Of a stretch of DNA of 64,000 bases, positions 1,634 to 44,517 are shown one piece after another. The stretch spans positions 1,240,001-1,304,000 of the forward strand of contig NZ_CP018047.1 in the NCBI RefSeq assembly GCF_002009175.1, given 5' to 3'. Both the position numbers and the translations under genes were made by a program. Position 1 is the first letter of the stretch. Every line of letters starts with the position of its first letter. A model generated the notes under the pieces. It was not told the DNA's origin and did no database searches. It saw nothing but the letters and a program-made list of their open reading frames with translations. Source of the DNA: Streptomyces niveus. Lineage in GTDB: Bacteria; Actinomycetota; Actinomycetes; Streptomycetales; Streptomycetaceae.

Positions 1634-1716
1634 CGAGTGGGAATGCGGGAATGCGGGCACGCCCCTGTTCGTTGGGCCCCTGAGAATCAATCCGACGACG
1701 TAAGGATCGACCGCAC

Positions 1717-2556: not shown

Positions 2557-2586
2557 GCCACCAACTGGTCCGCGATCGCCGGGCGC

Positions 2587-3573
2587 TCAGCGGGCCGGTA
2601 GGGCGGACGCGCGCAGCGCCTCGGCCAGCCACTCGAACGGGAACCGTTCCGGCGGCGTGTTGTTCATGGTGGTGACCAGTGCCATGTACCGGTCGAGCGG
2701 TCCCTCCGGATCCGGTGGTGTGCGGTCCCACTCCGCGCCCGCCAGCATGTGGTCGGCCGTCTGGATGCGGAACTCGGGGGTGTCCGGGATCGGGGGGCTG
2801 TCCGGTGTCGCGAAGATACCGGTCAGCCAGCCGATCCACCGGTCGGCGTTCTCCCGCCCCCGGGGTGAGTCCGGCGGCACCCCCTCCCGTGCCGCGTCCA
2901 TCACCGCCTCGCCGATCGGTGTGGCCGCCTCCAGGTTGTCCAGCATCGGTGACGAGGTCATCAGCGGCCCGGCCCCGGTGGTGCACGCCTCGTGCAGCTC
3001 ACGGCGTACGGCCTGGCGGACCTCGGTGTCCCGGATGAGTTCGGCCAGTTCGATCCACGCCTCGATCTGGGCCGCGGTGGGGTGTTCGGGCAGCTCCGGC
3101 CGGGCCGCCCGCCACCATTCGACCATCCGCTCGGGTGGCTCCCAGCCGGTGGAGACCTCGGTCCAGAACTCGTCGATCAGCCGGTCGCGCTCCTCGTCCG
3201 GCATACCTGCCAGCTTGTGCATCAGCGTGACCTGCTCGGCCGTGGAGTCCTGCCGCAGGATGGCCGACAGCACCGCGCGGCGGCTGCGCAGCCGTGCCTC
3301 CTGCCGTGCCAGCAGGGCCAGGTGGGTGGCGGCCAGCTCGCGCAGCGTCGCCTCGCCGGCCAGCACCCGCCGGATCTCGTCCAGGCCGGCGTCGAGTTCC
3401 CGTAGGGTCCGGACCAGTTCCAGCCGGGCGATGGCCGACACGTCGTAGAGGCGGTGGCCGGCCGGGGTACTGGCGGCCGGCGTGACGACGCCGGCGTCCG
3501 CGTAGTACCGGACGGCGCTGACGCTCAGGCCGGTCCGCCGGGCGACATCTCCGATGGCGTACAGCTCGTTCAT
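2587..3573 (-). CDS. MerR family transcriptional regulator
   Basis: A DNA-binding regulator of 328 residues. The N-terminal winged helix-turn-helix is classic MerR (YAIGDVARRTGLSVSAVRYYADAGVV), with the RYY turn and a following helix LRELDAGLDEIRRVLAG that would form the dimer coiled coil. The long C-terminal part, about residues 100-328, has no cysteine cluster and is not a TipAS domain; it looks like an uncharacterised ligand domain. I chose ATG at 3573, which puts the helix-turn-helix at the normal distance from the N-terminus; GTG at 3588 is also open. It is convergent with the aldo/keto reductase, with about 30 bp between them. Confidence 0.88.
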   Translation of the reverse strand: MNELYAIGDVARRTGLSVSAVRYYADAGVVTPAASTPAGHRLYDVSAIARLELVRTLRELDAGLDEIRRVLAGEATLRELAATHLALLARQEARLRSRRAVLSAILRQDSTAEQVTLMHKLAGMPDEERDRLIDEFWTEVSTGWEPPERMVEWWRAARPELPEHPTAAQIEAWIELAELIRDTEVRQAVRRELHEACTTGAGPLMTSSPMLDNLEAATPIGEAVMDAAREGVPPDSPRGRENADRWIGWLTGIFATPDSPPIPDTPEFRIQTADHMLAGAEWDRTPPDPEGPLDRYMALVTTMNNTPPERFPFEWLAEALRASALPAR

Positions 3574-3667
3574 GTCCACGACGCCCACTATGCGATCTCA
3601 ACCGGCTTGAGACGCAAGCCCGGTCAGGAACCGGATCGGGTGATCGCGCGCCCGCGGCTGGTCGTCG

Positions 3668-4477
3668 TCAGTGACAGTCGAAGCGCCAGTCCCACGGAAG
3701 GCCGGGGCACTCGCGGCAGTGGAAGAAGTAGACGCCGCCGCAGTCGCCCAGCTGTATGTCGCCGGTGATGGTCAGAAGGTGCTCCATGCGGTGTCCGCTC
3801 TCGCAGTTCGGCCAGTCGGCGGGCTGCGTCCAGGCGGGCCAGCCGCCGACCTTCGTCCCGATGACGTTGGAGTCGGGTGGCCACGCCGAGCCGCCCGTCG
3901 GCAGCCGGAAACGAGGTTCCCAGGTCTCCCACATGTCCTTGGGCAGATCGAGCCACCTCGGGAAGTCCTCGGCGGTGATCGGGGACAACGTGGAGGGTTG
4001 CGGCATGTTGTCCTCGTCGTACTCCCCCTCGCTCACCCCGGGGATCTCGGACAGCGACCCTCCAGCCATGACCTCGGCCTCGTTGCGCCAGTACAGCTGC
4101 GGCATCACCAGCAGCCTGGGATCCTGCTCATGGATCAGCGCGCACCAGGCCAGTTGCAGCAGATCCTTCCCCTCCGGGAACTCCAGCCCCGGAACATCCC
4201 GGGCGAACAGTTGCAGGATCGGCACCATGGGCACCGCACCCGGGACGATCTCGGTGGTGTTGCCCAAGTCGGACCCGTACGTCCAGTGGCCTTCCTGCGC
4301 GCAGTACGGCCACGGCTCGTCCGCAGGCCACAGCAGCCGGCCTCCGAGCGAACTCTCCCGCACGCCGGGGTCGCCGGGCTCCGGGTTGAGGAGGGTGGTT
4401 TCCCGGGCGAGGCCCGCGTACTCCGGTATCAGGGTGCGCAGATCCTTCGCGGGCGACTCGGGTACATCTCCGGGCAT
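3668..4477 (-). CDS. DUF1963 (YwqG-like) protein
   Basis: A 269-residue cytosolic protein of the DUF1963/YwqG group, whose function is unknown. Support comes from GGRLLWPADEPWPYC near residue 48, acidic spacer segments, and the characteristic KVGGWPAWTQ motif near residue 208, followed by a C-terminal region with QLGDCGGVYFF and a CREC pair. There is no signal peptide or membrane segment. The start is set by GAGGAG just upstream of the ATG. The gene stands alone between the MerR gene and the divergent PGPGW gene. Confidence 0.8.
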   Translation of the reverse strand: MPGDVPESPAKDLRTLIPEYAGLARETTLLNPEPGDPGVRESSLGGRLLWPADEPWPYCAQEGHWTYGSDLGNTTEIVPGAVPMVPILQLFARDVPGLEFPEGKDLLQLAWCALIHEQDPRLLVMPQLYWRNEAEVMAGGSLSEIPGVSEGEYDEDNMPQPSTLSPITAEDFPRWLDLPKDMWETWEPRFRLPTGGSAWPPDSNVIGTKVGGWPAWTQPADWPNCESGHRMEHLLTITGDIQLGDCGGVYFFHCRECPGLPWDWRFDCH

Positions 4478-4700
4478 CGTGGCTCCTCAGGCGTACAGAG
4501 ATCGGCGGAACGCTGCGGGCACGTTAGTACGCGCCACTGACACGACGTCGAGGTCGCGGAGGGCCGGTCATCGACGACGTCGGCCTCGGCAGTGCAAAGC
4601 TCCCGGAGTGGGAGAACTCCTTCGATTACGATCGCCCTCGCCGGCCGGACACCCTACGAACGACTCCGGACCATCCCTGCCCGTCCGGGGAGACCAGAAG

Positions 4701-5111
4701 GTGAGTGAGGTGCGCAGACAGACTCCTCTACGTCGAGGGCTCGCGCTTGTGACGGGAGTGGCGCTGCTGCTCCTCGGCATCGCACTGCTCGTCCTGCCCG
4801 GGCCCGGGCTGCTGCTCGTACTCGCCGGGCTGCTGGTCATCTCCGATCAGTTCCCTTCCGCGGCCCGCTACGTCGACCCGGTACGGGAGCGCGCCATGCG
4901 CGCTGCCAGGGAAAGCGTCTCCTCCCCGCTCCGGATCACCGGAGCCGCCCTCACCGCGGCGGCTCTTATGGCGGCCGGGCTGTTCTGGGGACTGATGCCC
5001 GAACTGCCCTTCGGCGGCTGGCCCACCGGGGCTGGGCTGATCCTTTCGAGTCTGCTCCTTGTCGCCCTGCTGGTGTACAGCTACCGCACGACGCGTGGCA
5101 GCCGCAGTTGA
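4701..5111 (+). CDS. PGPGW-family transmembrane protein
   Basis: A 136-residue integral membrane protein of the actinobacterial PGPGW family (TIGR02611-like). The first hydrophobic hairpin contains LVLPGPGLLLVLAGLL at about residues 28-43, a cytoplasmic loop rich in Arg follows, and a second membrane pair sits near residues 80-128 (ALTAAALMAAGLFWGL and GLILSSLLLVALLVYSY). The expected final Trp of the motif is Leu here. Its function is unknown. The GTG start follows GGGGAGA at a normal distance; the longer open frame upstream has no family match. The gene is read from the opposite strand to the C-terminal extension of the AraC gene. Confidence 0.82.
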   Translation: MSEVRRQTPLRRGLALVTGVALLLLGIALLVLPGPGLLLVLAGLLVISDQFPSAARYVDPVRERAMRAARESVSSPLRITGAALTAAALMAAGLFWGLMPELPFGGWPTGAGLILSSLLLVALLVYSYRTTRGSRS

Positions 5112-6059
5112 CGGTCGGCAACTCCCTTCTCCCGTGCGGTGTTCCTGTGGGCTGATGCCCCGCACCCGCTTGAAGGCCGCGCTCAGTGCGAACGAGCCGC
5201 CGTAGCCGACCTGGCGGGCGATCGACTCGACCGTGGCGTCCGTCTCCCGCAGCCGGTCGGCGGCCAACGAGAGCCGCCAGTCGGCGAGATACGCCATCGG
5301 GGACTCACCCACCAGCGCGGTGAAACGGCGGGCGAGCGCCGCGCGGGAGACCCCGCACTCCGCGGCGAGCGACGCGACGGTCCAGGGGTGGGCCGGTTCG
5401 TTCTGGAGGAGCCGGAGCGCCCGGCCCACCACCGGGTCGCCCATCGCCCGGTACCAGCCTGGCGCCGCCGCGTCCGGGCGGGAGAACCACGTCCGCAGCG
5501 CCGCGATCAGCAGCAGATCGAGCACCCGGTCGAGCACGACGCTCTGGCCGGGGTCGTCCCGTGAGATCTCGTCGTCCAGGACCGGCAGCAGCGGGCAGTT
5601 CCAGGCGTCGGCGGGCAGGTGGACCACGTCGGGCAGCGCGTCGAGGAGCCGCCGGCTGACCTCGCCGTCCATCCCGTAGGTCCCGACGAGCGTCGTCGAC
5701 GACCCGTCGGGCGCGTTGCCCCAGGTCCGTACGCCGAGATTCATGGACTGCGCGAGCGGTTCGCCGCGCAACGTGTGGCAGGTGCCGCCGGGGCCGATGA
5801 GCGCGTGCGGCGTACTGCCGGGAGCGTCGGTGACGGTGTACGCCTCCGGGCCGCGCACGATCGCGATGTCGCCGGGGCGCAGTACGACGGGCTCCGTGCC
5901 CGAGTCGTGGACGAGCCATGCCTCGCCGCGCGTGACGCACATCAGACAGAGCGGGGCGTGGTCCTCGATCCGTACCGACCACGGCGGTTCCATCACCATG
6001 CGCAGCAGGAAGGCCCCTCGCGCGCGGGGTCCGTCGAGAAGTCCGGCGAGTGCGTCCAC
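4728..6059 (-). CDS. AraC family transcriptional regulator with extended C-terminus
   Basis: AraC-type regulator. Residues 1-200 form a cupin-like sensor (LRPGDIAIVRGPEAYTV) and residues 205-308 two helix-turn-helices (TVASLAAECGVSRAALARRF and the second around ATVESIARQVGYGG), ending in the standard GISPQEHR at about base 5136. Normally the stop follows within a few codons. Here the frame stays open for another 135 Arg-, Gln- and Gly-rich residues to 4728, antisense to the PGPGW gene. Either the tail is a real but meaningless extension or a base change removed the stop. The start is GTG, 45 bp after the pterin dehydratase gene. Confidence 0.8.
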   Translation of the reverse strand: MDALAGLLDGPRARGAFLLRMVMEPPWSVRIEDHAPLCLMCVTRGEAWLVHDSGTEPVVLRPGDIAIVRGPEAYTVTDAPGSTPHALIGPGGTCHTLRGEPLAQSMNLGVRTWGNAPDGSSTTLVGTYGMDGEVSRRLLDALPDVVHLPADAWNCPLLPVLDDEISRDDPGQSVVLDRVLDLLLIAALRTWFSRPDAAAPGWYRAMGDPVVGRALRLLQNEPAHPWTVASLAAECGVSRAALARRFTALVGESPMAYLADWRLSLAADRLRETDATVESIARQVGYGGSFALSAAFKRVRGISPQEHRTGEGSCRPSTAAATRRAVAVHQQGDKEQTRKDQPSPGGPAAEGQFGHQSPEQPGRHKSRRGEGGSGDPERGGDAFPGSAHGALPYRVDVAGRGRELIGDDQQPGEYEQQPGPGQDEQCDAEEQQRHSRHKREPST

Positions 6060-6104
6060 ACCGGCCAGATTAGACGCGCCGTGTGGACGGCCGGAGACCG
6101 TGTC

Positions 6105-6407
6105 TCAGCTCGCGCCGTGCGTGGGCGCGATCTCCTCGACCCGGGCGGCCAGGTCGAAGTCGCGGTCCGTGATCCCGCCGACGTCGTGCGAGTTCACGGC
6201 CAGGTCGACGGTGTTGTAGCCGAGGGTGAGATCGGAGTGGTGGTTCAGCTCCTCCTGGATCCGCGCGACGTGCACGACCATCGCCGCCGCCGCGAAGTGG
6301 TCGGCGAGCCGGTAGCTGCGGGCGATCTTGCCGTCCTCGACGGACCACTCGGGCAGCGCCGCGAGCCGGTCCGCGATCTCCTGGGACGTCAGGACGTTCT
6401 TCGCCAT
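6105..6407 (-). CDS. phhB: Pterin-4a-carbinolamine dehydratase
   Basis: A 100-residue 4a-hydroxytetrahydrobiopterin dehydratase, which recycles oxidised tetrahydropterin cofactor or acts as a DCoH-like protein. The family signature is visible: PEWSVEDGKIARSYRLADH, then ELNHHSDLTLGYNTVDLAVNS with the active-site His pair, then the DFDLAARVE helix. ATG at 6407 is preferred because AAGGAG precedes it by five bases; the upstream in-frame GTG at 6413 would overlap that ribosome binding site. It is coupled to the NADH dehydrogenase gene just upstream. No aromatic amino acid hydroxylase is in the window. Confidence 0.92.
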   Translation of the reverse strand: MAKNVLTSQEIADRLAALPEWSVEDGKIARSYRLADHFAAAAMVVHVARIQEELNHHSDLTLGYNTVDLAVNSHDVGGITDRDFDLAARVEEIAPTHGAS

Positions 6408-6409
6408 GG

Positions 6410-7738
6410 TCACTCCTTACGAGGTCCGCCGGGGACCCTCGCCAGTTCGGGGGACGCGGTGTCGAGCGGCACGGTGTAGGAGCGTACGAGGCCGAGCTGT
6501 ACGCCCTGCCGTGGCAGCACCGCGTCCAGTATCCAGTCCGCCGCGACGCGGACCCGGTTCCCCGGCATGGCCGCCAGATGGTAGCCGCGGGTGACCGCCC
6601 CGGCGAGCGGGCCGGAGAGCGGCACCCCGAGCGGGTTGGCGGCGGCCTTGACCCCGCCGAGGTCGACGAGGAAGCCGAGATCGTGGTGCGCGTAGGCGCG
6701 CGTCTCCCCGTGGCCGAGCGACGCGGCCACGTTGTGGCCGGCCACCCTGCCCTGGCGGGACGCGTGCTGCGCGGTCATCGGGGTGCACTGCCCCGGCCTG
6801 GTCAGATCGGGTACGGCGGCGGCGTCGCCGCACGCGAAGACCTCGGGGTGGCCGGGAACGTTCAGGCGCGGGTCGACCTTCAGCCTGCCGTGTTCGACGG
6901 GCAGTCCGACCTCGCTGACCAGCGGGTCGGGCCGGACGCCGACGCACCAGACGAGGGTCCGGGTCCCGACGAACTCCCCGTCGTCGAGCTGGACGCCCTT
7001 CGGTGTGGCCTCGGTGACGGACGTGCCGGTGCGGACGTCCACGCCCCGTCCGCGCAGTACGCGGTGGGCGGTGTCGGAGAGCCTGCGGTCCAGTTCGGGC
7101 AGGATCCTGGGCGCGATGTCGACGAGCAGCCAGCGCGGGGCGGGCAGCCTCTTGCCGCCGGGCTGTCTGCGGACCAGGGCGTCGGTGTAGAGCTTGCCCT
7201 GGGCGGCGACCTCGGTGCCGGTGTAGCCCGCGCCGACCACCACGAAGGTGGTGCGCGCCTCGCGCACGGCGCTGTCGTCGGCGGCGGCGAGTTCGATCTG
7301 GCGGGTGACGTGGTCGCGCAGGTACAGGGCCTCGGGCAGGCCCCGGAAGCCGTGGGCGTTCTCGGTGACGCCGGGGATCGGCAGCAGTTTGTTGACGCTG
7401 CCGACGGCGAGGACGAGCCGGTCGTAGGTCAGCTCGCCGGTCTCGCCCTCGGGGCCGGTGTACCGCACGAGCCGCCGCGCCAGGTCGACGTGGTCCGCCT
7501 CGCCGAGTACGACGCGTACCCGCGGCAGCGCCCCGGTCAGTGAGACGGTGACCCGGCGCGGCTCCAGGATCCCGGCGGCCACCTGGGGCAGGAGCGGGAG
7601 GTAGAGGAAGTAGTCGGTCGGGTTGAGGAGGACGACCTCGGCCTGGTCCCGTACGCTCCGGCAGAGCGTACGGGCGGCCTCGAAACCGGCGAATCCGGCT
7701 CCTACGACAACGACGCGCGGACGGTCTGCACGGCTCAC
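6410..7738 (-). CDS. ndh: Type II NADH dehydrogenase (NDH-2 family FAD oxidoreductase)
   Basis: A 442-residue membrane-associated flavoprotein that would pass electrons from NADH to quinone without pumping protons. An N-terminal FAD-binding fold VVVVGAGFAGFEAAR, a second nucleotide-binding motif TFVVVGAGYTGTEVA near residue 165, and the C-terminal FAD motif VFACGDAAAVPDLTRPGQ support the call, followed by QHASRQGRVAGHNV typical of NDH-2. It starts with GTG. Its stop lies within a few bases of the pterin dehydratase start, so the two are probably co-translated. Confidence 0.92.
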   Translation of the reverse strand: MSRADRPRVVVVGAGFAGFEAARTLCRSVRDQAEVVLLNPTDYFLYLPLLPQVAAGILEPRRVTVSLTGALPRVRVVLGEADHVDLARRLVRYTGPEGETGELTYDRLVLAVGSVNKLLPIPGVTENAHGFRGLPEALYLRDHVTRQIELAAADDSAVREARTTFVVVGAGYTGTEVAAQGKLYTDALVRRQPGGKRLPAPRWLLVDIAPRILPELDRRLSDTAHRVLRGRGVDVRTGTSVTEATPKGVQLDDGEFVGTRTLVWCVGVRPDPLVSEVGLPVEHGRLKVDPRLNVPGHPEVFACGDAAAVPDLTRPGQCTPMTAQHASRQGRVAGHNVAASLGHGETRAYAHHDLGFLVDLGGVKAAANPLGVPLSGPLAGAVTRGYHLAAMPGNRVRVAADWILDAVLPRQGVQLGLVRSYTVPLDTASPELARVPGGPRKE

Positions 7739-7778
7739 GTTCGGCTCCGAACTGTGGCTGTCTGCCCCGTCCGCCCCA

Positions 7779-8738
7779 TTATCCTCGCGTGCGCCGGTAC
7801 TGCGACATGATCTCGGCGGGCGTGAGCGCCCGGTCGAAGAACATCAGGTCGTCCATCCGGCAGTCGCAGGGATTGCCCTCCTGGGTGTTCTGCGGATAGC
7901 TGCCGCCGATCTTGATGCCGCGCGGATCGGTGGGCGACGCGACGTCGGGTTCCGGTGCCCCTTCCACCGCCCACGGGTCACCGGCCACGACGTGCCGACC
8001 GGGCAGCGGGCGGCCGTCGCGGTACAGCGCCATCGTGCCCGTGTCGAAGTCGAACGTCGCGGCGAGTGAGACCCAGGTGTCGGGCGGCAGGATCTCCCGC
8101 CAGTCGGCGTCGGCCGCGAACGTCTGTGAACTCCCGTTGTCCACCCGGCGGCCGAGCGCGACGACCTTCATCTCGCCGTTGACCGTGATGAGTTCGAGCA
8201 GGGCGCGTACGTCGTGGCCCTGCGAGGTGCCGGAGAGGATCCCGGCGAGGCCGATCGCGTTGTAACGGTCGTTCGGGTCGGCGGTGTTGGAGTTCGGCGC
8301 GGGATTGTCGGCCGTCATCCTGAACCAGCCCATGACGGTGGTCTCCCGCGCGCCGTTGAAGGCGCCCAGGGTCGGCACCCCCTGCGGTCCGTACACGCCC
8401 GCCTTCCAGTCGTCGCTACCGGCGGTCCCGGGCGAGACCTGTCGGGTACGCAGGACCCGGCCGGGCCGCTCGTCGTCCCTGACCCGTGACTGGGCGCCGC
8501 CGTTGACGAGTTCGAGCGTGGTGCCGGACCGGCCCCGGTCCCGCTCGCGGGCCGGGTCACCGGGGACGGGGTGCTCGAAGTCGTACGCGGCGACCGGGCG
8601 CGGCGCGGCCCCGCCGCCGGCCCGGTCGGCGGCCCGGTCGGCGGGCGCGTCCGCCGGGGCGAACGCCGTGACCAGGAGCGTCGTGGTGAGGGCGAGGGCG
8701 AGGGCCGGCCGGCTCCGCCCCGGTGTGTCAGCGCGCAT
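7779..8738 (-). CDS. Secreted LamG-like (concanavalin-fold) protein
   Basis: A 319-residue exported protein. It has an N-terminal signal sequence (RPALALALTTTLLVTAFAPADA), an Ala/Asp/Arg-rich linker, then a LamG/concanavalin A-like jelly-roll from about residue 50 (VAAYDFEHP, VMGWFRMT, WVSLAATFDFDTGTMALYRDGR) ending in the usual CRMDDLMFFDRALTPAEI. Such domains bind carbohydrate. Its start overlaps the end of the PQQ-type sugar dehydrogenase gene by 11 bp, so it is translated with that enzyme and may help it reach a polymer surface (inference). Confidence 0.85.
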   Translation of the reverse strand: MRADTPGRSRPALALALTTTLLVTAFAPADAPADRAADRAGGGAAPRPVAAYDFEHPVPGDPARERDRGRSGTTLELVNGGAQSRVRDDERPGRVLRTRQVSPGTAGSDDWKAGVYGPQGVPTLGAFNGARETTVMGWFRMTADNPAPNSNTADPNDRYNAIGLAGILSGTSQGHDVRALLELITVNGEMKVVALGRRVDNGSSQTFAADADWREILPPDTWVSLAATFDFDTGTMALYRDGRPLPGRHVVAGDPWAVEGAPEPDVASPTDPRGIKIGGSYPQNTQEGNPCDCRMDDLMFFDRALTPAEIMSQYRRTRG

Positions 8739-10185
8739 CGGTCACCTTCCAGATCTTCCCGTTGGCCTTGGCGAGCACGTACAGCTCACCCGCGCGGTCG
8801 GTGCCGAACCGGAGGTCGACCCGCTCGTCCCCCGCCAGTTCCGCCATCGAGGTCGCCGCCCCCGCCGCGTCGATGACCTTGAACTGGTGCACCTCGGCGA
8901 GCGGCCCGCCCCGGCGCATGTCCGCCACCTCGGAGTAGAAGATCCGGCCGCCGACGCCCTCGCCGTAGACGTACTTGCCTCGCAACTCCGGTATCTCCGC
9001 GCCCCGGTAGACGAAGCCGCCGATCAGCGCGTTGCCGCTGTCGGCGCACGGGGTGGCCGGCGGTGGCACGTGGTCGAAGGCCGCGACGGGATAGGTGTAG
9101 CCGTACTGCTCGTCGTTCTCGGGGAGTTCGTAGACGCCACAGGTCGGGTTCCCCTCCTTGCGGTACTCGAAGGGCCCTTCGCGGTCGCTCCAGCCGAGGT
9201 TGTCACCGGCCCTGACGTCGTAGACCGACTCGACGCGGTGCTCCCCGATGTTCCCGACGAACATCTGTCCGCTGCCCGCGGAGTCCCAGCTGAAGCGGTG
9301 CGGGTCCCGGAAGCCGTACGCGTAGATCTCGCCCAGCACGTACTGCCGGTGTGTGAAGGGGTTGGACGGCGGGATGCCGTACTTGCCGCCGGAGCCGTTG
9401 TGGCCGCTCGGGTCGATGCGCAGGATCTTGCCCTGCGGTACGTACAGATCCTGCGGTACGGAACTGCGCCAGCCCGCTCCCCCGTCGCCGGCCGCGATGT
9501 AGAGCAGCCCGTAATCCTCGTCACCGGGGCGGGCGTTGGGGTTGAAGTTGATCTCCTGGATGTCGTGGATCGTGCTCTGGAAGCCGAGTCGCATCACCTC
9601 GCGGCGCGAGCCGTCGAAGGTCGCGGCGGCCGGGTCGTCGGCCGTCCACTCCGTGATCACGCTGTGGACGACGGTGACTCCGCCGGAGGGCAGGTCGGGA
9701 CGCTTCTTGAGCGCGTCCCTGGCCTCGGTGTGGACGGTGTAGAACTTGCCGTTGTCCGCGAACTCCGGATGGAACGCGACGAATCCGAAGCCGCTGCCGA
9801 GCCCCTGGTGGGACCAGAAGTCGGGGCCGAAGGCGGCGCCGACGTCCAGATACTCGGTGGGCGTGCCCGTCTCGTCCAGCAGATGCAGCTTGCCGTTGAG
9901 GTCGGGGACGTACAACCGGCCGGAGTCGTCAGGGACTTCACCGACGAAGTTGATCCGGGCCCAGCGCTTCAGCCGGTCGTCGGTCGGTGGCGGTGCCGGT
10001 TCGGACTTGGGGAGGGTCGAGAACTCGTCAAGAACCAGGCCAATTTCGGAGAGTGTCGGATCGGGCAGCGGATCGGCGATCGGCCCGTCCTCCCGCGCCA
10101 CGGCCGGTGGCACGAAAAGCGCCATCAGCAACACCCCCGCCGCTATGGCCAGTCGACTTCTGCCTGTTGTTCCGGGCATGGGCAT
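8728..10185 (-). CDS. Secreted PQQ-dependent sugar dehydrogenase (GSDH family)
   Basis: A 485-residue extracellular six-bladed beta-propeller of the soluble glucose/sorbosone dehydrogenase family, which oxidises aldoses with PQQ. A signal peptide (LAIAAGVLLMALFVPPAVA) precedes the propeller. Typical segments are LGFVAFHPEF-like FGFVAFHPEFADNGKFY, YIAAGDGGAG, GKILRIDPSG, GFRDPHRFSWD, and the last blade YVLAKANGKIWKV. I set the start at ATG 10185, after GAGGTGAGCGGG, since upstream codons have no signal-like character; 10179 is an alternative. No PQQ synthesis genes are in the window, so the cofactor source is unknown. Confidence 0.88.
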   Translation of the reverse strand: MPMPGTTGRSRLAIAAGVLLMALFVPPAVAREDGPIADPLPDPTLSEIGLVLDEFSTLPKSEPAPPPTDDRLKRWARINFVGEVPDDSGRLYVPDLNGKLHLLDETGTPTEYLDVGAAFGPDFWSHQGLGSGFGFVAFHPEFADNGKFYTVHTEARDALKKRPDLPSGGVTVVHSVITEWTADDPAAATFDGSRREVMRLGFQSTIHDIQEINFNPNARPGDEDYGLLYIAAGDGGAGWRSSVPQDLYVPQGKILRIDPSGHNGSGGKYGIPPSNPFTHRQYVLGEIYAYGFRDPHRFSWDSAGSGQMFVGNIGEHRVESVYDVRAGDNLGWSDREGPFEYRKEGNPTCGVYELPENDEQYGYTYPVAAFDHVPPPATPCADSGNALIGGFVYRGAEIPELRGKYVYGEGVGGRIFYSEVADMRRGGPLAEVHQFKVIDAAGAATSMAELAGDERVDLRFGTDRAGELYVLAKANGKIWKVTDAR

Positions 10186-10212
10186 CCCGCTCACCTCATC
10201 GGCTCGGACGGT

Positions 10213-10241
10213 GCGGTCCGGACAGTGTCTACCCGGACCGC
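10213..10241. other. Inverted repeat in the leader of the sugar dehydrogenase gene
   Basis: A perfect 9-bp inverted repeat (GCGGTCCGG and CCGGACCGC) with an 11-base loop. It lies between the LacI-like site and the start of the minus-strand dehydrogenase gene, so it would be in the 5' leader. It could stabilise the transcript or be a regulator site. Confidence 0.45.
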
Positions 10242-10244
10242 GCA

Positions 10245-10256
10245 GAAAGCGCTTCC
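10245..10256. promoter_or_regulatory. Possible LacI-family operator
   Basis: GAAAGCGCTTCC, a nearly perfect palindrome around AAGCGCTT, 60 bp upstream of the secreted sugar dehydrogenase start. LacI/GalR regulators of sugar genes in actinomycetes often bind sites with this GCGC core. No LacI gene is in the window. Confidence 0.45.
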
Positions 10257-10462
10257 TACGAAGCATCTGCGCCAAGTTACAAACGAGACAAGGGCACGGC
10301 AAGGGGCCGGGAGCGAGCAAAGTGGCGGGGGCATCGATTTCGGGCACAAGAGCCCCATGGGACGGTCAAGTCGGCGGGGGCGCGTGCGAAGTGGGCCCCG
10401 AATGGCGGTACTGTGCGCGCGCGCCGCCATCCCGGCAGGCGCAGTTCACGCGGAGGATTTCA

Positions 10463-11083
10463 GTGACTGTATTCAACAGATCGTGGCGACGCCCCGGGGC
10501 GCTCGTGACGGTCGCGGCGGCGGGTGCGCTCGGCGTCGGCCTCTTCGCCGGCCCGGCGGTGGCGCACACCCCGGCCTGGGCCGTGACCTGCTCGGAGGTG
10601 AGCGTCGATCTCGTCAACTACACCGCCGGCGCCGAGAACACGGTGACCCTGACCGTCGACGGCAAGGACCTGCTGCCCACCGAGAAGTTCGGTGGCGAGT
10701 TCCACAAGAAGATCGAACTGCCCGAGCACACGAAGGAACTGACCCTCCACCTCGTGGTGAAGGACGGTTCGGGCAACGACGGTTCGCTCGACGACACCAA
10801 GACCGCGCCGGTCTGCGAAGGCACCGAGCCCGAGCCCGAGCCGTCGACGACGCCTCCGGACGAGCCCACGCCGACGCCGCCTGCGGAGGAGCCGAAGCCG
10901 GAGCCGAGCAAGACGACTGCCGCCGCCGTGCCGTCGTCGCAGCCGAGCCCCGCCGGTGACGACCTCGCCGAGACGGGTTCCTCCAGCACCACCCCGCTGA
11001 TCGCGGGCGCCGCGGCCGTCATACTCGTCGCCGGTGCGGGCATCACGTGGGCCGCGCGCAAGCGCCGCACCGTGGGTAACTGA
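10463..11083 (+). CDS. Sortase-anchored surface protein (LAETG)
   Basis: A 206-residue secreted protein of a Streptomyces-type wall-anchored family. A signal peptide ends near AVAHT; residues 35-120 form a beta-rich domain with two Cys (TCSEV and VCEGT) that could form a disulfide; residues 120-165 are a Pro/Glu/Thr spacer. The C-terminus has the class E sortase motif LAETG, a hydrophobic segment (TPLIAGAAAVILVAGAGITWA) and a basic tail. GTG at 10463 is the start, eight bases after GGAGG. The gene is divergent from the secreted dehydrogenase and ends at a strong terminator hairpin. The role of the domain is unknown. Confidence 0.87.
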   Translation: MTVFNRSWRRPGALVTVAAAGALGVGLFAGPAVAHTPAWAVTCSEVSVDLVNYTAGAENTVTLTVDGKDLLPTEKFGGEFHKKIELPEHTKELTLHLVVKDGSGNDGSLDDTKTAPVCEGTEPEPEPSTTPPDEPTPTPPAEEPKPEPSKTTAAAVPSSQPSPAGDDLAETGSSSTTPLIAGAAAVILVAGAGITWAARKRRTVGN

Positions 11084-11154
11084 CCCACCGCGACCACCGC
11101 CGACGCCTGCCGACCGAAGGCCGAACCACCGCCGACGGACGCAGAACCGCCGTC

Positions 11155-11184
11155 GGCCGACGGGCACTTGAGTGCCCGTCGGCC
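11155..11184. terminator. Bidirectional terminator hairpin
   Basis: A perfect 14-bp palindrome (GGCCGACGGGCACT and its complement) around a two-base centre, between the convergent surface protein and ferritin genes. There is no T-run, as is usual in Streptomyces. Confidence 0.75.
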
Positions 11185-11218
11185 GGCGGCGGTGCCATTG
11201 CCGGCGGCGCGCTCATGG

Positions 11219-11764
11219 TCAGGACTTGGCGCTCGCGGGCAGTCGCTCCAGCAGCCCGCGCAGGTCGTCCGCGTGCTCCTCCTCCTGTGCGAGGAGATCC
11301 TCGAAGATCCGGCGTGTGGTGGGGTCGCCGTCCCCGAGCCACTGCGCGATCTCCGTGTACGCGGCGATGGCGACCCGCTCGGCTACCAGGTCCTCCTTGA
11401 TCATCTTGATCAGGTCGAGGCTCGCGTCGTACTCCGCGTGCGAGCGCTCGGTCAGCGTGTCCGGGTTGAAGTCGGGCTCACCACCGAGCTGTACGATCCG
11501 CTCGGCCAGCCTGTCGGCGTGCTGCTGCTCCTCGCCCGCGTGCTCCAGGAATTCCGCGGCGACCGGCTCCGCGTACAGCCCCGTCGCCGTGTAGTAATGC
11601 CTCTTGTAGCGCAGGGTGCAGACGATCTCGGTGGCCAGCGCCTCGTTCAGGACCTGGATGACGCGGCCGAGATCCGCCCCGTAGGCGTCCGTCACCGGGC
11701 CTTTCCCGATCTCCTTGCGCGCGCGTTCGCGAATCGTCCGGATGTCGGTGAGGAATTCGGCCAT
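11219..11764 (-). CDS. Ferritin-like diiron protein (bacterioferritin group)
   Basis: A 181-residue four-helix-bundle iron-binding protein. Helix A carries NEALATEIVCTLRYKRHYY, helix B EEQQHADRLAERI with the ExxH metal motif, helix C DLVAERVAIAAYTEI, and helix D LLAQEEEHADDL, so both diiron half-sites look intact. It would oxidise and store iron or protect against peroxide. It is 47 bp downstream of the DUF5133 gene on the same strand and is probably co-transcribed with it. Whether it binds haem like true Bfr is not clear: I see no obvious haem-ligand Met. Confidence 0.88.
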   Translation of the reverse strand: MAEFLTDIRTIRERARKEIGKGPVTDAYGADLGRVIQVLNEALATEIVCTLRYKRHYYTATGLYAEPVAAEFLEHAGEEQQHADRLAERIVQLGGEPDFNPDTLTERSHAEYDASLDLIKMIKEDLVAERVAIAAYTEIAQWLGDGDPTTRRIFEDLLAQEEEHADDLRGLLERLPASAKS

Positions 11765-11811
11765 GCCCGTTCACGCCCTTTCTTTCCGGCTGCTTCTGTT
11801 GTCGGCCGGCC

Positions 11812-12084
11812 TCAGAATTCGCCGGCCCCGGAGATTTCGGTCGCCCTGCGCGCCTGGGCCGCTCTGCGCGCCCGTACACCCCGATGGCCTCTGCCGAGAT
11901 ACGACTCCGCCGCACGGATCGCCTCGTGCGCGGTGCGGTGTCCCATCAGCACGCACAGGGTGTAGGCGGCGTCGTCCAGCCGTCGCCTGCGCACCGAGTT
12001 GTGCGGCTCCTGGAGGACCAGCTGCTCCCAGATCCGGTAGCGGCGCAGAAGCTGGGCGAGCCGGGCCTTGTCCGGCAGAAGCAT
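11812..12084 (-). CDS. DUF5133 protein
   Basis: A 90-residue actinobacterial protein of unknown function. It starts MLLPDKARLAQLLRRY and contains RRRLDDAAYTLCVLMGHRTA, the two conserved stretches of DUF5133, followed by an Arg-rich tail. The ATG at 12084 was chosen because the family begins at MLLPDK; the open frame extends 36 codons further without similarity. It is the first gene of a probable two-gene unit with the ferritin-like gene. Confidence 0.8.
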   Translation of the reverse strand: MLLPDKARLAQLLRRYRIWEQLVLQEPHNSVRRRRLDDAAYTLCVLMGHRTAHEAIRAAESYLGRGHRGVRARRAAQARRATEISGAGEF

Positions 12085-12220
12085 GCTCGTCTCCCGATTC
12101 CGAGGTCGGCCCGGCTGCCCGGACGGACGCCCGACAGACGTTGTCCGGCTCGTCCACATTGCGCCGATCGCGCGGGGTACGCAAACGGGCACTTAACGTA
12201 ACGAGTCCTGAAATAAACGC

Positions 12221-12754
12221 TCAGGCGTCGAAGACATCGATGAAGACCGAGTCGAACGCCTTCAGATCGTCGGGCCTGCGGCTGGTGACGAGCGTGTTCG
12301 GCCCGTCGGCGCAGATATGGACCTGCTCGTCCACCCAGGTACCGCCCGCGTTACGGATGTCCGTCCGCAGACTCGGCCAGGAGGTCAGGGTCCTGCCGCG
12401 CACCACGTCGGCCTCCACCAGCGTCCAGGGGGCGTGGCAGATCGCCGCCACCGGCTTGCCCGCGTCGAAGAACCCCTTCACGAAGGCGACCGCGCCCTTG
12501 TCCGTCCGCAGCGCGTCCGGGTTGGCCACGCCGCCGGGCAGGACGAGTCCGTCGAAGCCGTCGACCGTGCTGTCGGCCACCGTCGCGTCCACCGGGAAGG
12601 TGTCGGCCTTGTCCAGGTGGTTGAAGGCCTGCACCCGGCCCGGCCGGGTCGAGACGAGGACGGGCTCACCACCGGCGTCCACGACCGTCTGCCAGGGCTC
12701 GGTCAGCTCGACCTGCTCGATGCCCTCGGGGGCCGTCAGGAACGCGACGCGCAT
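12221..12754 (-). CDS. DJ-1/PfpI (type 1 glutamine amidotransferase-like) protein
   Basis: A 177-residue flavodoxin-like protein of the DJ-1/PfpI superfamily. The nucleophile elbow is AICHAPW with Cys followed by His, preceded by DGLVLPGGVANPD. Members act as glyoxalase III or deglycase-type stress enzymes or as proteases; no assignment is possible from sequence. It lies about 65 bp downstream of the transketolase on the same strand and may share its transcript. Confidence 0.9.
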   Translation of the reverse strand: MRVAFLTAPEGIEQVELTEPWQTVVDAGGEPVLVSTRPGRVQAFNHLDKADTFPVDATVADSTVDGFDGLVLPGGVANPDALRTDKGAVAFVKGFFDAGKPVAAICHAPWTLVEADVVRGRTLTSWPSLRTDIRNAGGTWVDEQVHICADGPNTLVTSRRPDDLKAFDSVFIDVFDA

Positions 12755-12818
12755 GGGGACCCACTCCTTCTGTGCTCTCGGATTCGGCGCTCTTCCGCGC
12801 TTCCGGGATCTCCGTCCG

Positions 12819-14663
12819 TCAGCGCACCACGGCGGTGCCGGTCAGCAGCTTCACGGCGGCGGCGATCGATTCGGCGTCGATGCCCGCGCCGCGCAACTGC
12901 TCGGCGGGGGTGGCGGAGCCCGGCATGTTCCGTACACCGAGCCGCACCAGCCGGGGCGAGGGCCTGCCGTCGGAGAAGACCTCCGCGACGGCGTCGCCGA
13001 GACCGCCCTGCGGGTGGTGGTCCTCCACCGTGATCAGACAGCCGGTGTCGGCCGCGGCGGCCTGGAGGGTGACCTCGTCGGCCGGTTTGATCGAGTACAT
13101 GTCGACGACCCGCACCGTGATGCCCTCGGCGGCCAGCAGGTCGGCCGCCTTGAGGCACTCGTGGACGGTGATCCCGGTGCCGACGAGCGTCATCCGGTCG
13201 TCGATGGAGTGGCGGAGCACCTTGCTGCCGCCGACCGGGAACTGCTCGTCGGGGCCGTAGAGGACCGGTGTCTTCCCGCGCAGCGTGCGCAGATAGCAGA
13301 CGCCCTCCAGTTCGGCCATCGCGGCGACGAGCCGGGTCGTCTGGTTGGCGTCGCACGGCTGCAGGACCGTACTGCCGTGCAGGGCACGGAACATGGCGAG
13401 GTCTTCGAGACCCATCTGGGAGGGCCCGTCCTGGCCGATGGAGACCCCGGCGTGCGAGCCGACGACGCTGATCGACGCCCGGCTGACCGTGGCCATCCGC
13501 AGGAAGTCGTGGGCGCGGGTAAGGAAGGCCGCGAAGGTGGAGGCGTACGGGATCTGTCCGCACGCCTGCATGCCTACGGCGGCGGCCACCAGCTGCTGCT
13601 CGGCGATGTAGAGCTCGAAGTAGCGCTCGGGATGCTCCTTCGAGAAGAACTCGGTACGGGTCGAGTCACCGACCTCGCCGTCGAGCGCCACGATGTCGCC
13701 GCGAGCGGAGCCGAGCGCGGTCAGGGCCTGGCCGTACGCGTCACGGGTGGCGATCTCGTCGCCCACGTCGAAGCGCGGCAGGTTCAGATGGCCGACCTCG
13801 GTACGGGGGTCGGTGGCCGCCGGGTCGGGCTTGCGCACCTCGACGCGCAGGTTCCTCCGGCCGCCCAGCTCCTCGATGGCGGCCGCCGCGTCGGGCAGGG
13901 GCTTGCCGTGCTTGCCCTCCTTGTCCTCGACGGAGGCGACCCCCCGGCCTTTCTTGGTGGCGGCGATGATCGCCGTCGGCTCCCCGACGGTCGAGCGGGC
14001 CTCGTTGCAGGCCGCGTCGATCGCGTCGATGTCATGGCCGTCGACCTCGATGGTGTGCCAGCCGAAGGCGTGCAGCCTGCGGGTGTACGCGCCGAGGTCG
14101 TGCTCGTGGCGGGTGGGGCCGCGCTGGCCGAGCCGGTTCACGTCGAGGATCATCGTGAGCGAGTCGAGATGCTGGTATCCGGCGTGCTCGGCGGCCTCCC
14201 AGATCGAGCCCTCGGCCATCTCGCTGTCACCGCAGAGCACCCAGACCCGGTACGGGACCTTGCCCAGCCGCTGCCCGGCGAGCGCCATGCCGACGCCGAT
14301 GGGCAGGCCCTGCCCGAGCGAGCCGGTCGCCACGTCCACCCAGGGGAGCCGGGGCGTGGGGTGGCCTTCGAGGCGGCTGCCCTGGCGGCGGTAGGTGCGG
14401 AACTCCGACTCGTCGACGGCACCGGCCGCGAGATACATGGAATACAGCAGGGGCGACGCGTGACCCTTGGAGAAGATCAGCCGGTCGTTCCCCGGGTGGT
14501 CGGGCCGGTCGAAGTCGTACGTGAGGTGATTGGCCAGCAGTACGGCGGCGAGGTCGGCCGCGGACATCGACGAGGTCGGATGGCCGGAACCCGCCATGTC
14601 GGCGACCCGGACCGAGTCCACCCTGAGCTGCTGCGCCAGTTCTGTCAGTAGTTCGCTACGCAT
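12819..14663 (-). CDS. tkt: Transketolase
   Basis: A 614-residue thiamine diphosphate enzyme that moves two-carbon units between sugar phosphates. The N-terminal domain has AGSGHPTSS, FSKGHASPLLY and the ThDP motif GDSEMAEGSIWEAAEHAGY; the pyrimidine domain has ELYIAEQQLVAAAVGMQA with the catalytic Glu, and SHAGVSIGQDGPSQM; a C-terminal domain follows. It is shorter than the E. coli type (about 660) and resembles the compact vertebrate-like form, so it may be a second, specialised transketolase. The ATG follows GAGGAG at a good distance. Confidence 0.93.
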   Translation of the reverse strand: MRSELLTELAQQLRVDSVRVADMAGSGHPTSSMSAADLAAVLLANHLTYDFDRPDHPGNDRLIFSKGHASPLLYSMYLAAGAVDESEFRTYRRQGSRLEGHPTPRLPWVDVATGSLGQGLPIGVGMALAGQRLGKVPYRVWVLCGDSEMAEGSIWEAAEHAGYQHLDSLTMILDVNRLGQRGPTRHEHDLGAYTRRLHAFGWHTIEVDGHDIDAIDAACNEARSTVGEPTAIIAATKKGRGVASVEDKEGKHGKPLPDAAAAIEELGGRRNLRVEVRKPDPAATDPRTEVGHLNLPRFDVGDEIATRDAYGQALTALGSARGDIVALDGEVGDSTRTEFFSKEHPERYFELYIAEQQLVAAAVGMQACGQIPYASTFAAFLTRAHDFLRMATVSRASISVVGSHAGVSIGQDGPSQMGLEDLAMFRALHGSTVLQPCDANQTTRLVAAMAELEGVCYLRTLRGKTPVLYGPDEQFPVGGSKVLRHSIDDRMTLVGTGITVHECLKAADLLAAEGITVRVVDMYSIKPADEVTLQAAAADTGCLITVEDHHPQGGLGDAVAEVFSDGRPSPRLVRLGVRNMPGSATPAEQLRGAGIDAESIAAAVKLLTGTAVVR

Positions 14664-41883: not shown

Positions 41884-42342
41884 TCAGGACGCCTCGGTGG
41901 CCTTCTCCGTCTCGGCCGCGAGCTTCGCGAGCAGCTCGTCGTGGATACGGGCGAGGCCCTTGGGCGCGAACGTCCGCTCGAAGAAGCCGCCGATACCGCC
42001 GGCGCCGTCCCAGACGGTGGTGACGACGGTCTTCGAACGGCCTTCGCCCGCCGGGGTGACGACCCAGGTGGTGACCATGGAGGAGTTGCGGTCCTTCTCC
42101 ACGAGCTGGCCGTCCGTGGGTTCGGTGACCTCGACGAGGCAGTCACGGACGCGCTTCTTGGTCGCCTGGAGCTTCCAGTGGACGAGGGTGCCCTCGCCGT
42201 CGCCGCCCTCGCGGACCTCGTACTCGCTGAAGTGCGCGGGCAGCACCTTCGGGCGGACGTCCTGGTAGTCCGCCAGCGCGTCGAACACCGTCTCCGCGTC
42301 CGCCGCGATGATCCGCTCCGTCGTGGCTTCGACCTGCGCCAT
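41884..42342 (-). CDS. SRPBCC family protein (polyketide cyclase/START-like)
   Basis: A 152-residue START-like helix-grip protein. It begins QVEATTERIIAADAETVFDALADY, typical of the SRPBCC superfamily, continues with VHWKLQATKKRVRDCLVEV, and ends in a long helix LARIHDELLAKLAAETEKA. It would bind a hydrophobic ligand; no catalytic role is visible. ATG 42342 is preceded by GGAGGA. It is divergent from the radical SAM gene, with 130 bp between starts. Confidence 0.87.
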   Translation of the reverse strand: MAQVEATTERIIAADAETVFDALADYQDVRPKVLPAHFSEYEVREGGDGEGTLVHWKLQATKKRVRDCLVEVTEPTDGQLVEKDRNSSMVTTWVVTPAGEGRSKTVVTTVWDGAGGIGGFFERTFAPKGLARIHDELLAKLAAETEKATEAS

Positions 42343-42427: not shown

Positions 42428-42439
42428 GAACATGTGTTC
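42428..42439. promoter_or_regulatory. LexA (SOS) box
   Basis: GAACATGTGTTC fits the Gram-positive/actinobacterial SOS consensus GAAC-RNRY-GTTC. It directly precedes TATTCT (42440-42445), a good -10 hexamer, 33 bp upstream of the radical SAM gene start. LexA bound here would block RNA polymerase. Confidence 0.75.
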
Positions 42440-42472
42440 TATTCTGTGGTCGGTACAACTGAGGAGGCGCAA

Positions 42473-43510
42473 ATGCGCTGGGACAATCTGGCCGAGAACC
42501 CCACGTCGGCCCGCGACGCCGCGCTCTTCGGTACGGACGCGGTGACCACCAGGACCTTCGACACCCCCGAATTCCGCGGCATCACGTTCCACGAGATCCG
42601 CGCCCGTTCGATCGTGAACCGGGTGCCGGGCGCGTCGCGCATGCCGTTCGAGTGGACGGTCAATCCGTACCGGGGGTGCTCACACGCCTGCGTGTACTGC
42701 TTCGCCCGCAAGACCCACAGCTATCTGGACCTCGACACCGGCCTCGGCTTCGACTCGCAGATCGTCGTCAAGATCAACGCGCCGGCGCTGCTGCGCAGGC
42801 AGCTCGCCTCGCGCCAGTGGCAGGGCGCGCACATCGCGATGGGGACGAACGTCGACTGCTACCAGCGGGCGGAGGGCCGGTACCGGCTGATGCCGGGCAT
42901 CATCTCGGCGCTGCGCGACCGCGCGAACCCCTTCTCCATCCTGACCAAGGGCACGCTGATCCTGCGCGATCTGGAGCTGCTGCGAGAGGCGGCGCAGGTC
43001 ACGGACGTCGGCGTGTCCGTCTCCGTCGGCTTCACCGACCAGGAGCTGTGGCGCACGGTCGAGCCGGGCACGCCCTCGCCGCAGCGCCGTCTCGACGCCG
43101 TCCGCGCGCTGACGGACAGCGGCATAGGCTGCGGGGTCCTGATGGCCCCCGTCATCCCCTTCCTCGGCGACGGCGCGGACCAACTGCGGGCCACCGTGCG
43201 GGCGATAGCCGCGTCCGGGGCGACGTCGGTGACCCCGCTGGTGCTGCATCTGCGGCCGGGCGCGCGCGAGTGGTTCATGCGGTGGCTGCGGGAACACCAC
43301 GCGCACCTGGTACCGCGCTACGAGCGGCTGTACGCGGAGGGGGCGTACGCGCCGAAGTGGTACCAGCGCCGAATCACGCGCCAGGTCCACGAACTGGCGG
43401 ACGAGTTCGGGATCGGCCCGTCGGGGCTTGCGGCGCGGCGGCGCGTACCGGTCCCGGAGACGCTGGTCCCGGAGGCGGAGGCGGGGCCGACACAGCTGAC
43501 GCTGTTGTAG
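42473..43510 (+). CDS. Rv2578c-family radical SAM protein
   Basis: A 345-residue radical SAM enzyme. The cluster motif CSHACVYC (Cx3Cx2C) lies in [17 protein letters not shown] near residue 72, followed by [17 protein letters not shown] and [16 protein letters not shown], the layout of the Rv2578c group, which resembles spore photoproduct lyase. The reaction is not known. ATG 42473 follows GAGGAG at six bases. A LexA box overlaps its promoter, so it should be induced by DNA damage. The macro-domain gene follows after 22 bp. Confidence 0.9.
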
Positions 43511-43532
43511 TGCCGGGTGCGATCATCCGGGG

Positions 43533-44039
43533 ATGACAGTGATCGAGGTCGTACAGGGCGACATCACCCGCCAGGACACGGACGCCATCGTCAACGCGGC
43601 GAACGAGTCGCTGCGCGGCGGGGGTGGTGTGGACGGGGCGATCCACTGGGCCGCGGGCCCGCGGCTCGCCGAGGCGGGCGCGGCGATCGCGCCGTGCGCG
43701 CGGGGTGACGCGAAGGCGACACCGGGCTTCGACCTCCCGCCACCGATCCGGCACGTGATCCACACGGTGGGCCCGGTATGGAAGGGCGGCGACCGCGGAG
43801 AGCCGGAAATCCTGGCCTCCTGCTACCGGCGCTGCCTGGAGGTGGCGGACGAACTGGGCGCGAGGAGCGTGGCGTTCCCGGCGATCTCGACGGGCATCTT
43901 CGGCTTCCCGCCGGAACGGGCGGCACGTATCGCGGTGAAGACGCTGAGGTCGACGCGGACGGATGTCGAACGAATCAGCCTGATGGCCTTCGACAGCCCG
44001 ACCCACCGCGTGCTGACGGCGGCACTGGCTGCGGGCTAG
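43533..44039 (+). CDS. Macro-domain protein (O-acetyl-ADP-ribose deacetylase-like)
   Basis: A 168-residue macro domain of the MacroD/YmdB group, which removes ADP-ribose from proteins or nucleic acids or hydrolyses O-acetyl-ADP-ribose. The key loops are intact: [19 protein letters not shown] with the catalytic Asn/Asp region, and [13 protein letters not shown]. It has only a weak ribosome binding site (CCGGGG next to the ATG) and lies 22 bp after the radical SAM gene, so it probably shares its SOS-controlled transcript. Confidence 0.92.
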
Positions 44040-44060
44040 CGGCCGCTCGGGGCCGGGGAG

Positions 44061-44157
44061 ATTGCCGGCTTGCACGCCCTGCGGGGTAGCTGCCCGCAGG
44101 GGCCGGGGAACATTGCCGGGTTGCGCGCCCTACGGGGTAGCTGCCCGCAGGGGCCGG
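44061..44157 (+). repeat. Two tandem hairpin units, 51-bp period
   Basis: Two copies about 46 bp long, beginning ATTGCCGG at 44061 and 44112. Each holds a hairpin: CCCTGCGGG / CCCGCAGGG (44077-44101, perfect 9 bp, 7-base loop) and CCCTACGGG / CCCGCAGGG (44128-44152, one mismatch). They follow the macro-domain gene and may end its transcript. Confidence 0.75.
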
Positions 44158-44204
44158 ACGGGCTCCAATTCCGCCCGCCCGCCGAGCATTTCCAGCACGC
44201 CCGG

Positions 44205-44428
44205 CGGGCACTTCAAGCCCGTCCGGCGATTGAGGACACCCCCCGTTGCGGCGAATCCCTTCCAGCCGCCCGCCCGGCTCTTCAAGCCGTCCGGCGATTG
44301 AGGACACACCAGCGACCAGGCGCGCCGCACGGGCGCCACGTCCGGCCGGCCTTTCAAGCCCGTCCGGCGATTGAGGACACCGCCCGTTGCGGGGGAACCT
44401 ATTCAGCCCGTCCGGCGATTGAGGACGA
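44205..44428 (+). repeat. Cluster of four GTCCGGCGATTGAGGAC repeats
   Basis: Direct copies of the 17-base core begin at 44221, 44289, 44362 and 44410, mostly preceded by TTCAAGCC or TTCAGCCC. Spacers differ in length (51, 56 and 31 bases) and sequence. The same core recurs near 63.8 kb. With the tandem hairpins this fills the 469-bp gap after the macro-domain gene; no gene is seen there before the RidA fragment. Confidence 0.9.
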
Positions 44429-44517
44429 ACCGGCAGCCGGGCGAGCCCGGGCGCACCCCTCGCCCCGCCGGGAAAAGCCCTCGTCCCCACACGGCCGCCT
44501 CCGCGAGGATGGCCCGC

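Follow-up and report, generated by a model that had tools for sequence, protein, structure and literature searches.

We have analysed a 64-kb stretch of the Streptomyces niveus chromosome (NZ_CP018047.1, positions 1,240,001 to 1,304,000, hereafter the window; this Streptomyces genome, G000, is 7.99 Mb), in which a radical SAM gene of the Rv2578c family is preceded by a palindrome resembling the operator of the SOS repressor LexA and is followed by a gene for a macro-domain protein. Our comparisons suggest that the radical SAM gene probably encodes an SOS-induced enzyme with the fold of spore photoproduct lyase (SPL) that is recruited to the sliding clamp and acts on damaged DNA. A SplB-like gene under SOS control is in itself an already known part, and the radical SAM and macro genes do not form a conserved system; what makes the locus worth following up is the phylum-wide operator and, above all, the clamp-type C terminus, which is the new element that we describe for this SOS-associated family.

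A conserved palindrome at the radical SAM promoter

The palindrome, GAACATGTGTTC, is the sole match to GAACNNNNGTTC within the window, where 0.54 would be expected by chance, and across the G000 genome there are 90 such palindromes against 29 for a reversed control. Since a single match in 64 kb could well be fortuitous, it is the retention of the box between species that argues for its being real. A search of 121 Streptomyces genomes gave a radical SAM match in 112, from which 110 loci were fetched, and 105 of these were scanned from -150 to +90 around the start, leaving out four with split or fragmentary genes (L107-L110) and one at a contig end (L097). The exact box is present in 97 of the 105 orthologues, and seven control palindromes of the same form are found in 0/105 each. 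As in the window, the box directly abuts the hexamer TATTCT in 72 of the 97 loci, with other TATT- or TAAT-type hexamers in the remaining 25; no -35 element was identified at the radical SAM promoter. The initial annotation had reported a full match to the LexA consensus beside a -10 hexamer. The hexamer is indeed there, and the match holds for the 12-bp core, but the outer TC/GA of the 16-bp motif, tCGAAC-N4-GNNCGa (PMC9380542; this and the other papers are cited from the portions of their text that were available), are absent and the core is flanked by GG and TA. Of the 97 loci, 86 also share the 5' GG flank.

The box extends well beyond the genus. In a search across the phylum, 141 of 296 genomes had matches, nine of them Streptomyces; from 76 of the other 132 genomes we took 77 loci, mostly the higher-scoring ones, with duplicates dropped, and two with short upstream sequence (L173, L176) were not counted. 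An exact box lies near the start in 57 of the 75 non-Streptomyces loci, the controls giving 0 for six palindromes and 1 for the seventh. Eleven of the 18 misses (L211-L221) are distant homologues scoring at most 171 bits, and a box with a single mismatch is present in four of the remaining seven. In a separate collection of other actinobacteria, consisting of the best 80 of a longer list and referred to here as the named loci, 47 have the exact box and 72 agree with the core at seven or all eight bases no further than 40 nt from the start. Of the 18 among them that are named Mycobacterium, Mycolicibacterium or Mycobacteroides, 17 have the exact box.

SOS control of a gene of this type is already in print, since vnz_31145 of S. 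venezuelae, listed as 'Radical SAM protein', is enriched in LexA chromatin immunoprecipitation sequencing (ChIP-seq) and shows a fold change of 19.97 in RNA-seq with mitomycin C (PMC9380542), and it is probably the orthologue of the window gene. The 14-mer listed for vnz_31145 was found in 1 of 170 loci, L028 (G015), where it lies no more than 40 nt before the orthologue. In that locus (2554-2585) a perfect palindrome, GAACAGGTGTTC, abuts TATTCT and adjoins the published imperfect 14-mer; it looks like a better operator than the 14-mer, which suggests that the published box assignment is worth revisiting. Although vnz_31145 resembles the window gene in its radical SAM product, LexA ChIP peak and 20-fold mitomycin C induction, it is listed as a UV-repair-like enzyme with an imperfect 14-mer as its operator, and the available portions of the paper mention neither a clamp tail nor phylum-wide conservation. 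The window gene thus has a conserved operator at its promoter, as befits a member of the LexA regulon, and the conservation in Streptomyces and mycobacteria together with the published data for the probable S. venezuelae orthologue make it very probable that GAACATGTGTTC is a LexA operator, as first proposed.

Related genes are under SOS control in other phyla: splB-like genes in Alpha- and Betaproteobacteria (PMC3323433) and in Bacteroidetes (PMC8565304), and SplB-like genes share operons with ImuB-C, an SOS-linked domain (PMC3765255). The splB/COG1533 genes of the first two papers are like the window gene in being SplB-like radical SAM genes controlled by LexA, but the LexA motifs are different ones. 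Our literature searches, whose scope mostly excluded subscription journals, returned nothing that links PA0069 to LexA or the Rv2578c family to DNA damage, and the available text of one paper that names Rv2578c itself does not touch on how it is regulated.

A candidate clamp-binding motif at the C terminus

The window radical SAM protein ends in QLTLL, and the last five residues conform to QL[TSA][LI][LIM] in 104 of the 105 Streptomyces orthologues, the exception being L103; shuffles that keep the composition of the last 25 residues averaged 0.077 and never exceeded 2. Among those 104 proteins, a set that was chosen by the motif and so leaves the exception out, column entropy does not exceed 1.1 bits over the final five positions, and the linker, from position -8 inwards, has about 2-3.3 bits per column. 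The codons of the tail vary synonymously, which argues that selection acts on the protein. The tail matches the published C-terminal sliding-clamp motif Q-L-x-L-F (PMC4549789) and, as would be expected of such a motif, is a conserved element in an exposed or disordered segment, residues 329-345 having a per-residue confidence (pLDDT) below 50 in an AlphaFold2 model. Among 2916 background open reading frames (ORFs), real and spurious, a loose form of the motif ends six and the strict form ends one, whose tail is that of the L308 orthologue. As a positive control, the replicative-type DnaE of the host carries QFDLF; the DinB-like loci of the host, also taken as a control for clamp motifs, gave no motif.

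Tails of the same kind recur in other groups, where they were counted from printed C termini. Twelve of 16 non-Streptomyces proteins end in Q-x-x-[LM]-[FLI], either exactly or with a single extra residue, the remaining four have APTLF, PDVLF, ALTLF and QLSIP, and the tails of relatives include QPTLF, QLSLF and QLRLF. Q-x-x-L lies within the last 30 residues in all of a further 20 C termini (20/20), and in another 20, which have one gene in common with the previous set, it was seen in 18, one of them internal. At the named loci a terminal hydrophobic pair is present in 77/80 and Gln at -5 in 44/80. The motif was also found in 118 of the 120 best Rv2578c-type database hits, which are mostly Streptomyces, and in 112 of the 120 best PA0069-type hits, these being hits to a Rubrobacter protein.

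For the Proteobacteria, 44 plasmid records match a PA0069-type query, and seven were taken, one per genus. Their tails are QLSLF (Paracoccus), QLRLF (Aeromonas), QLTMF (Azospirillum), QGELF (Sphingomonas), QLSLL (Sinorhizobium and Shinella) and QLRLL (Methylobacterium). Class-specific LexA-type boxes lie within 250 nt of the match start in six of the seven loci, two of them at about -190, and mononucleotide shuffles gave 0.45-1.25% per locus; the Methylobacterium locus has no LexA-type box in that interval. LexA boxes in Proteobacteria take the forms GTTCN7GTTC and CTGTN8ACAG. Six of these seven PA0069-type genes, which may correspond to the splB genes of the published work, have a tail of the same type. 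We found nothing in the literature, within the scope given above, that links a radical SAM protein to a clamp-binding motif; papers that name both radical SAM and the sliding clamp appeared to be off-topic.

Fold and cysteines of the radical SAM protein

The assignment to the Rv2578c family, made in the initial annotation, is borne out by the NCBIfam equivalog model NF038135 (rSAM_Rv2578c), which the protein matches at 529.7 bits against a cut-off of 430, and Pfam Radical_SAM matches as well. In the AlphaFold2 model (mean pLDDT 76.6) the tail and the cluster loop are of low confidence. SPL fills the first six places in both Foldseek and VIA-align, in a comparison that covers the families in the VIA list, and is also the best profile match (E 0.00095); the model therefore has a radical SAM barrel of the SPL type, at 12-15% identity and a root-mean-square deviation (rmsd) of about 4-5 Å. 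Across 50 sequences the only invariant cysteines are C69, C73 and C76; C220 occurs in 39/50 and C129 in 11/50, so that no column of non-cluster cysteine is invariant. In SPL, Cys140 is the hydrogen-atom donor. Because only the cluster cysteines are invariant, we take the protein to have an SPL-like scaffold without a conserved candidate for the donor cysteine, as judged by column invariance. The initial description of the enzyme as SPL-like is therefore borne out for the fold but not for the chemistry. Compared with SPL (4fhc, 4k9r), which is its best structural match and shares its CxxxCxxC cluster, the window family differs in its low identity and in lacking an invariant Cys140 equivalent; it also carries a C-terminal clamp-type peptide.

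It is possible that the protein is nonetheless a true SPL that cleaves 5-thyminyl-5,6-dihydrothymine by means of a cysteine hydrogen donor. Streptomyces is not known to form endospores packed with small acid-soluble spore proteins (SASPs). SPL is the closest solved fold by profile and by structure, and relatives have been named SplB (PMC3323433, PMC8565304), but the distance in sequence and structure, the want of any invariant cysteine beyond the cluster, the induction of vnz_31145 by mitomycin C in growing cells and a published warning against the SplB name (PMC12924846) make this reading unlikely. It is also conceivable that the enzyme is SOS-induced but acts on RNA, protein or a small molecule and that its tail is not a clamp motif, since the radical SAM fold, according to Foldseek and VIA-align, is also common to lipoyl synthase, MiaB, viperin and others. 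We consider this quite unlikely, given that in several groups the tail agrees with the clamp consensus despite a variable linker, and that the gene is preceded by LexA boxes of three kinds.

The macro-domain gene

The initial annotation placed a macro-domain gene 22 bp downstream of the radical SAM gene, and the ORF found there matches Pfam Macro (PF01661; 144.1 bits, cut-off 22) and NF001664 (205.4 bits, cut-off 200) and aligns to DR_2288 (9w48) with an E value of 3e-44. A NAAN loop is a mark of the MacroD type. With its macro fold, the protein is, by sequence, a MacroD-type ADP-ribose hydrolase. The two genes were originally proposed to form an SOS-controlled repair route, with the radical SAM enzyme mending a base lesion and the macro enzyme stripping ADP-ribose from the same DNA or protein. 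Both lie on one strand behind one upstream SOS promoter, they also adjoin in the nearest relative (G044, with a gap of 41 bp) and may do so in Streptomyces sp. NPDC058653, where the contigs that encode the two proteins are equal in length, and the macro protein matches its family model. Another Streptomyces macrodomain, SCO6735 of S. coelicolor, is UV-inducible (PMC5087735) and has been reported to remove ADP-ribose linked to thymidine in DNA (PMC9411070). SCO6735 is similar to the window protein in being a Streptomyces macrodomain under DNA-damage control, but it has its own RecA-NDp promoter (PMC5087735) and is likened here by domain, not by orthology.

Against a two-gene module, the macro gene adjoins the radical SAM gene in only 2 of the 110 Streptomyces loci, G000 and G044 (about 1.5 kb downstream was examined in most loci, and less in a few), and in 0 of the 80 named loci, and of 392 Streptomyces genomes only three have a homologue of the window macro gene at E <= 1e-60. 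A macro match of any strength is found in 104 of the 121 genomes; most other Streptomyces have a macro gene of roughly 50-60% identity elsewhere in the genome, which in G117, G083, G009, G074 and G040 is 26-45 kb from the radical SAM gene. Upstream of 27 such genes there is no exact SOS box (the best, in one, has 7/8 bases). The pair is thus lacking in related genomes, the outcome that the initial annotation had itself set beforehand as counting against its proposal, and we regard a two-gene repair module as very unlikely. Because adjacency and close homologues are rare and other macro genes lie elsewhere with no box, we take the macro gene to be a lineage-specific neighbour. SOS read-through into it is nevertheless likely in the window lineage, given the gap of 22 bp.

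Other macro genes were also checked for an upstream RecA-NDp promoter (PafBC-type) and for an exact SOS box, and neither was found in 30 loci, which include the three closest to the window macro gene (L111-L113); the RecA-NDp pattern had no positive control. Two close relatives of the macro protein, P0215 and P0230, have an acylphosphatase domain in addition (PF00708 + PF01661). Just 3' of the macro gene, at 44040-44440, a cluster of GTCCGGCGATTGAGGAC-type repeats can be seen by eye, together with another direct repeat, and these could be a trace of the arrival of the gene.

Proposed role of the radical SAM protein

We propose that LexA bound to GAACATGTGTTC, where it would touch the -10 hexamer, keeps the radical SAM gene off, and that DNA damage, through RecA-triggered loss of LexA, would turn it on. 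The enzyme, with an iron-sulfur and SAM barrel of the SPL type, would be recruited by its disordered tail, QLTLL, to the sliding clamp, at sites where replication has stalled or has already passed, and its radical chemistry may there reverse or remodel a damaged base. The macro gene would be a passenger that entered the transcript in the window lineage and probably acts independently. What the comparisons show is the conservation of the operator, the predicted fold, and the tail motif with its selection at the protein level; LexA action in this strain, clamp binding, activity on DNA and the nature of the lesion are inferences.

Several observations weigh against this proposal. The exact box is absent from 8 of the 105 Streptomyces orthologues, seven of which have a one-mismatch box 44-62 nt before the start while the eighth (L053) has its best match, with one mismatch, at -156, and the distant PA0069-type actinobacterial genes (L335-L342) have no GAACNNNNGTTC box. 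The box published for vnz_31145, TCGACCGTTCGCTC at -61, does not coincide with the palindrome, and the published position fits neither the palindrome nor the 14-mer in L028, a discrepancy that we have not reconciled. The Gln of the tail is often missing in Mycobacteriales and Micrococcales, which would weaken clamp binding; some 17-20 residues follow the motif in the deep actinobacterial relatives L231, L233, L236 and L239; and there is no tail in the two most distant homologues (L343, L346) or in one 'mobile pair protein B' control from Bacteroides. Lastly, residues 70-93, which form the cluster loop, were modelled with low confidence.

More broadly, the Rv2578c- and PA0069-type proteins may constitute a class of SOS-induced, replisome-recruited repair enzymes that have unrelated LexA operators and a clamp-docking tail and that reverse the lesion in place, a proposal for which we see the case as evenly balanced. 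Such enzymes would resemble a translesion polymerase, but would repair a replication-blocking lesion instead of bypassing it. SOS-regulated 'SplB' genes are listed as photolyase-like in several papers, which in their available portions give no tested role outside spores, and the clamp-type tail offers a concrete hypothesis for the site of action of these enzymes. Strict conservation in bacteria that do not form endospores suggests that the substrate is a lesion or crosslink not yet recognised.

Insertions in the radical SAM gene

SAM40697_5543, the attB gene of phage Samy, is described as an integration site, and a link to DNA repair is called speculative (PMC12924846). It belongs to the Rv2578c family and has a divergent SRPBCC gene and a major facilitator superfamily (MFS) neighbour, both as in the window, and is in our view the orthologue of the window radical SAM gene. 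Integration of phage-based vectors at this site (PMC12924846) therefore probably disrupts an SOS gene.

Two Streptomyces radical SAM genes are split near codon 70-78, by ~13 kb of extra DNA in L107 (G108; 829-13820) and by ~8 kb in L108 (G068; 2401-10598). Ten ORFs in these inserts were scanned and three gave Pfam hits: a large serine recombinase and a D5/DUF5906 primase-like protein in G108, and a B12-binding radical SAM protein in G068. In several actinobacterial relatives (L166, L167, L169, L172, L178 and L193) long insertions lie at about residue 76-81, at the CxxxCxxC motif, and on the basis of an NCBIfam model and their open frames these are read as putative inteins. The putative intein site (window 42677-42710, codons 69-79) is close to the point at which the Streptomyces genes are split by mobile elements.

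Layout of the locus

Table 1. Features of the radical SAM locus, in window coordinates
Feature	Position	Strand	Evidence
LexA operator (SOS box) GAACATGTGTTC, very probable	42428..42439		Exact in 97/105 Streptomyces orthologues; seven control palindromes 0/105
-10 hexamer TATTCT, abutting the operator	42440..42445	+	Directly after the box in 72/97 Streptomyces loci
Shine-Dalgarno-like GAGGAGG	42461..42467	+	Read from sequence
Rv2578c-family radical SAM gene, 345 aa, ATG at 42473	42473..43510	+	NF038135; Pfam Radical_SAM
CxxxCxxC cluster motif (C69, C73, C76), codons 69-76	42677..42700	+	Three Cys invariant in 50/50
Variable, probably disordered linker before the C-terminal peptide	43412..43492	+	Column entropy; low pLDDT
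C-terminal QLTLL, candidate sliding-clamp-binding motif (Q-L-x-L-F type)	43493..43507	+	104/105 Streptomyces; shuffles; codons; consensus of PMC4549789
MacroD-type macro-domain gene, 168 aa, lineage-specific neighbour	43533..44039	+	Adjoins in 2/110 loci
Divergent SRPBCC (polyketide cyclase-like) gene, sharing the intergenic region with the box	41884..42342	-	Pfam PF10604

Of 106 Streptomyces loci, 94 have a homologue of the divergent SRPBCC gene. Among named organisms, the nearest relatives of the radical SAM protein are from Streptomyces sp. IB2014 016-6 (97%) and S. niveus (93%), and those of the macro protein are from S. niveus (96-98%). Two further copies of the radical SAM gene are of note. 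In Mycobacterium sp. 1274761.0 (L254, match 3001-4014) the Rv2578c-family gene has an in-frame stop. A Tsukamurella plasmid copy of the Rv2578c type (L362, 745-2340) has the tail QESLF and no exact box in the stretch scanned, and is followed by ArsR and SRPBCC genes.
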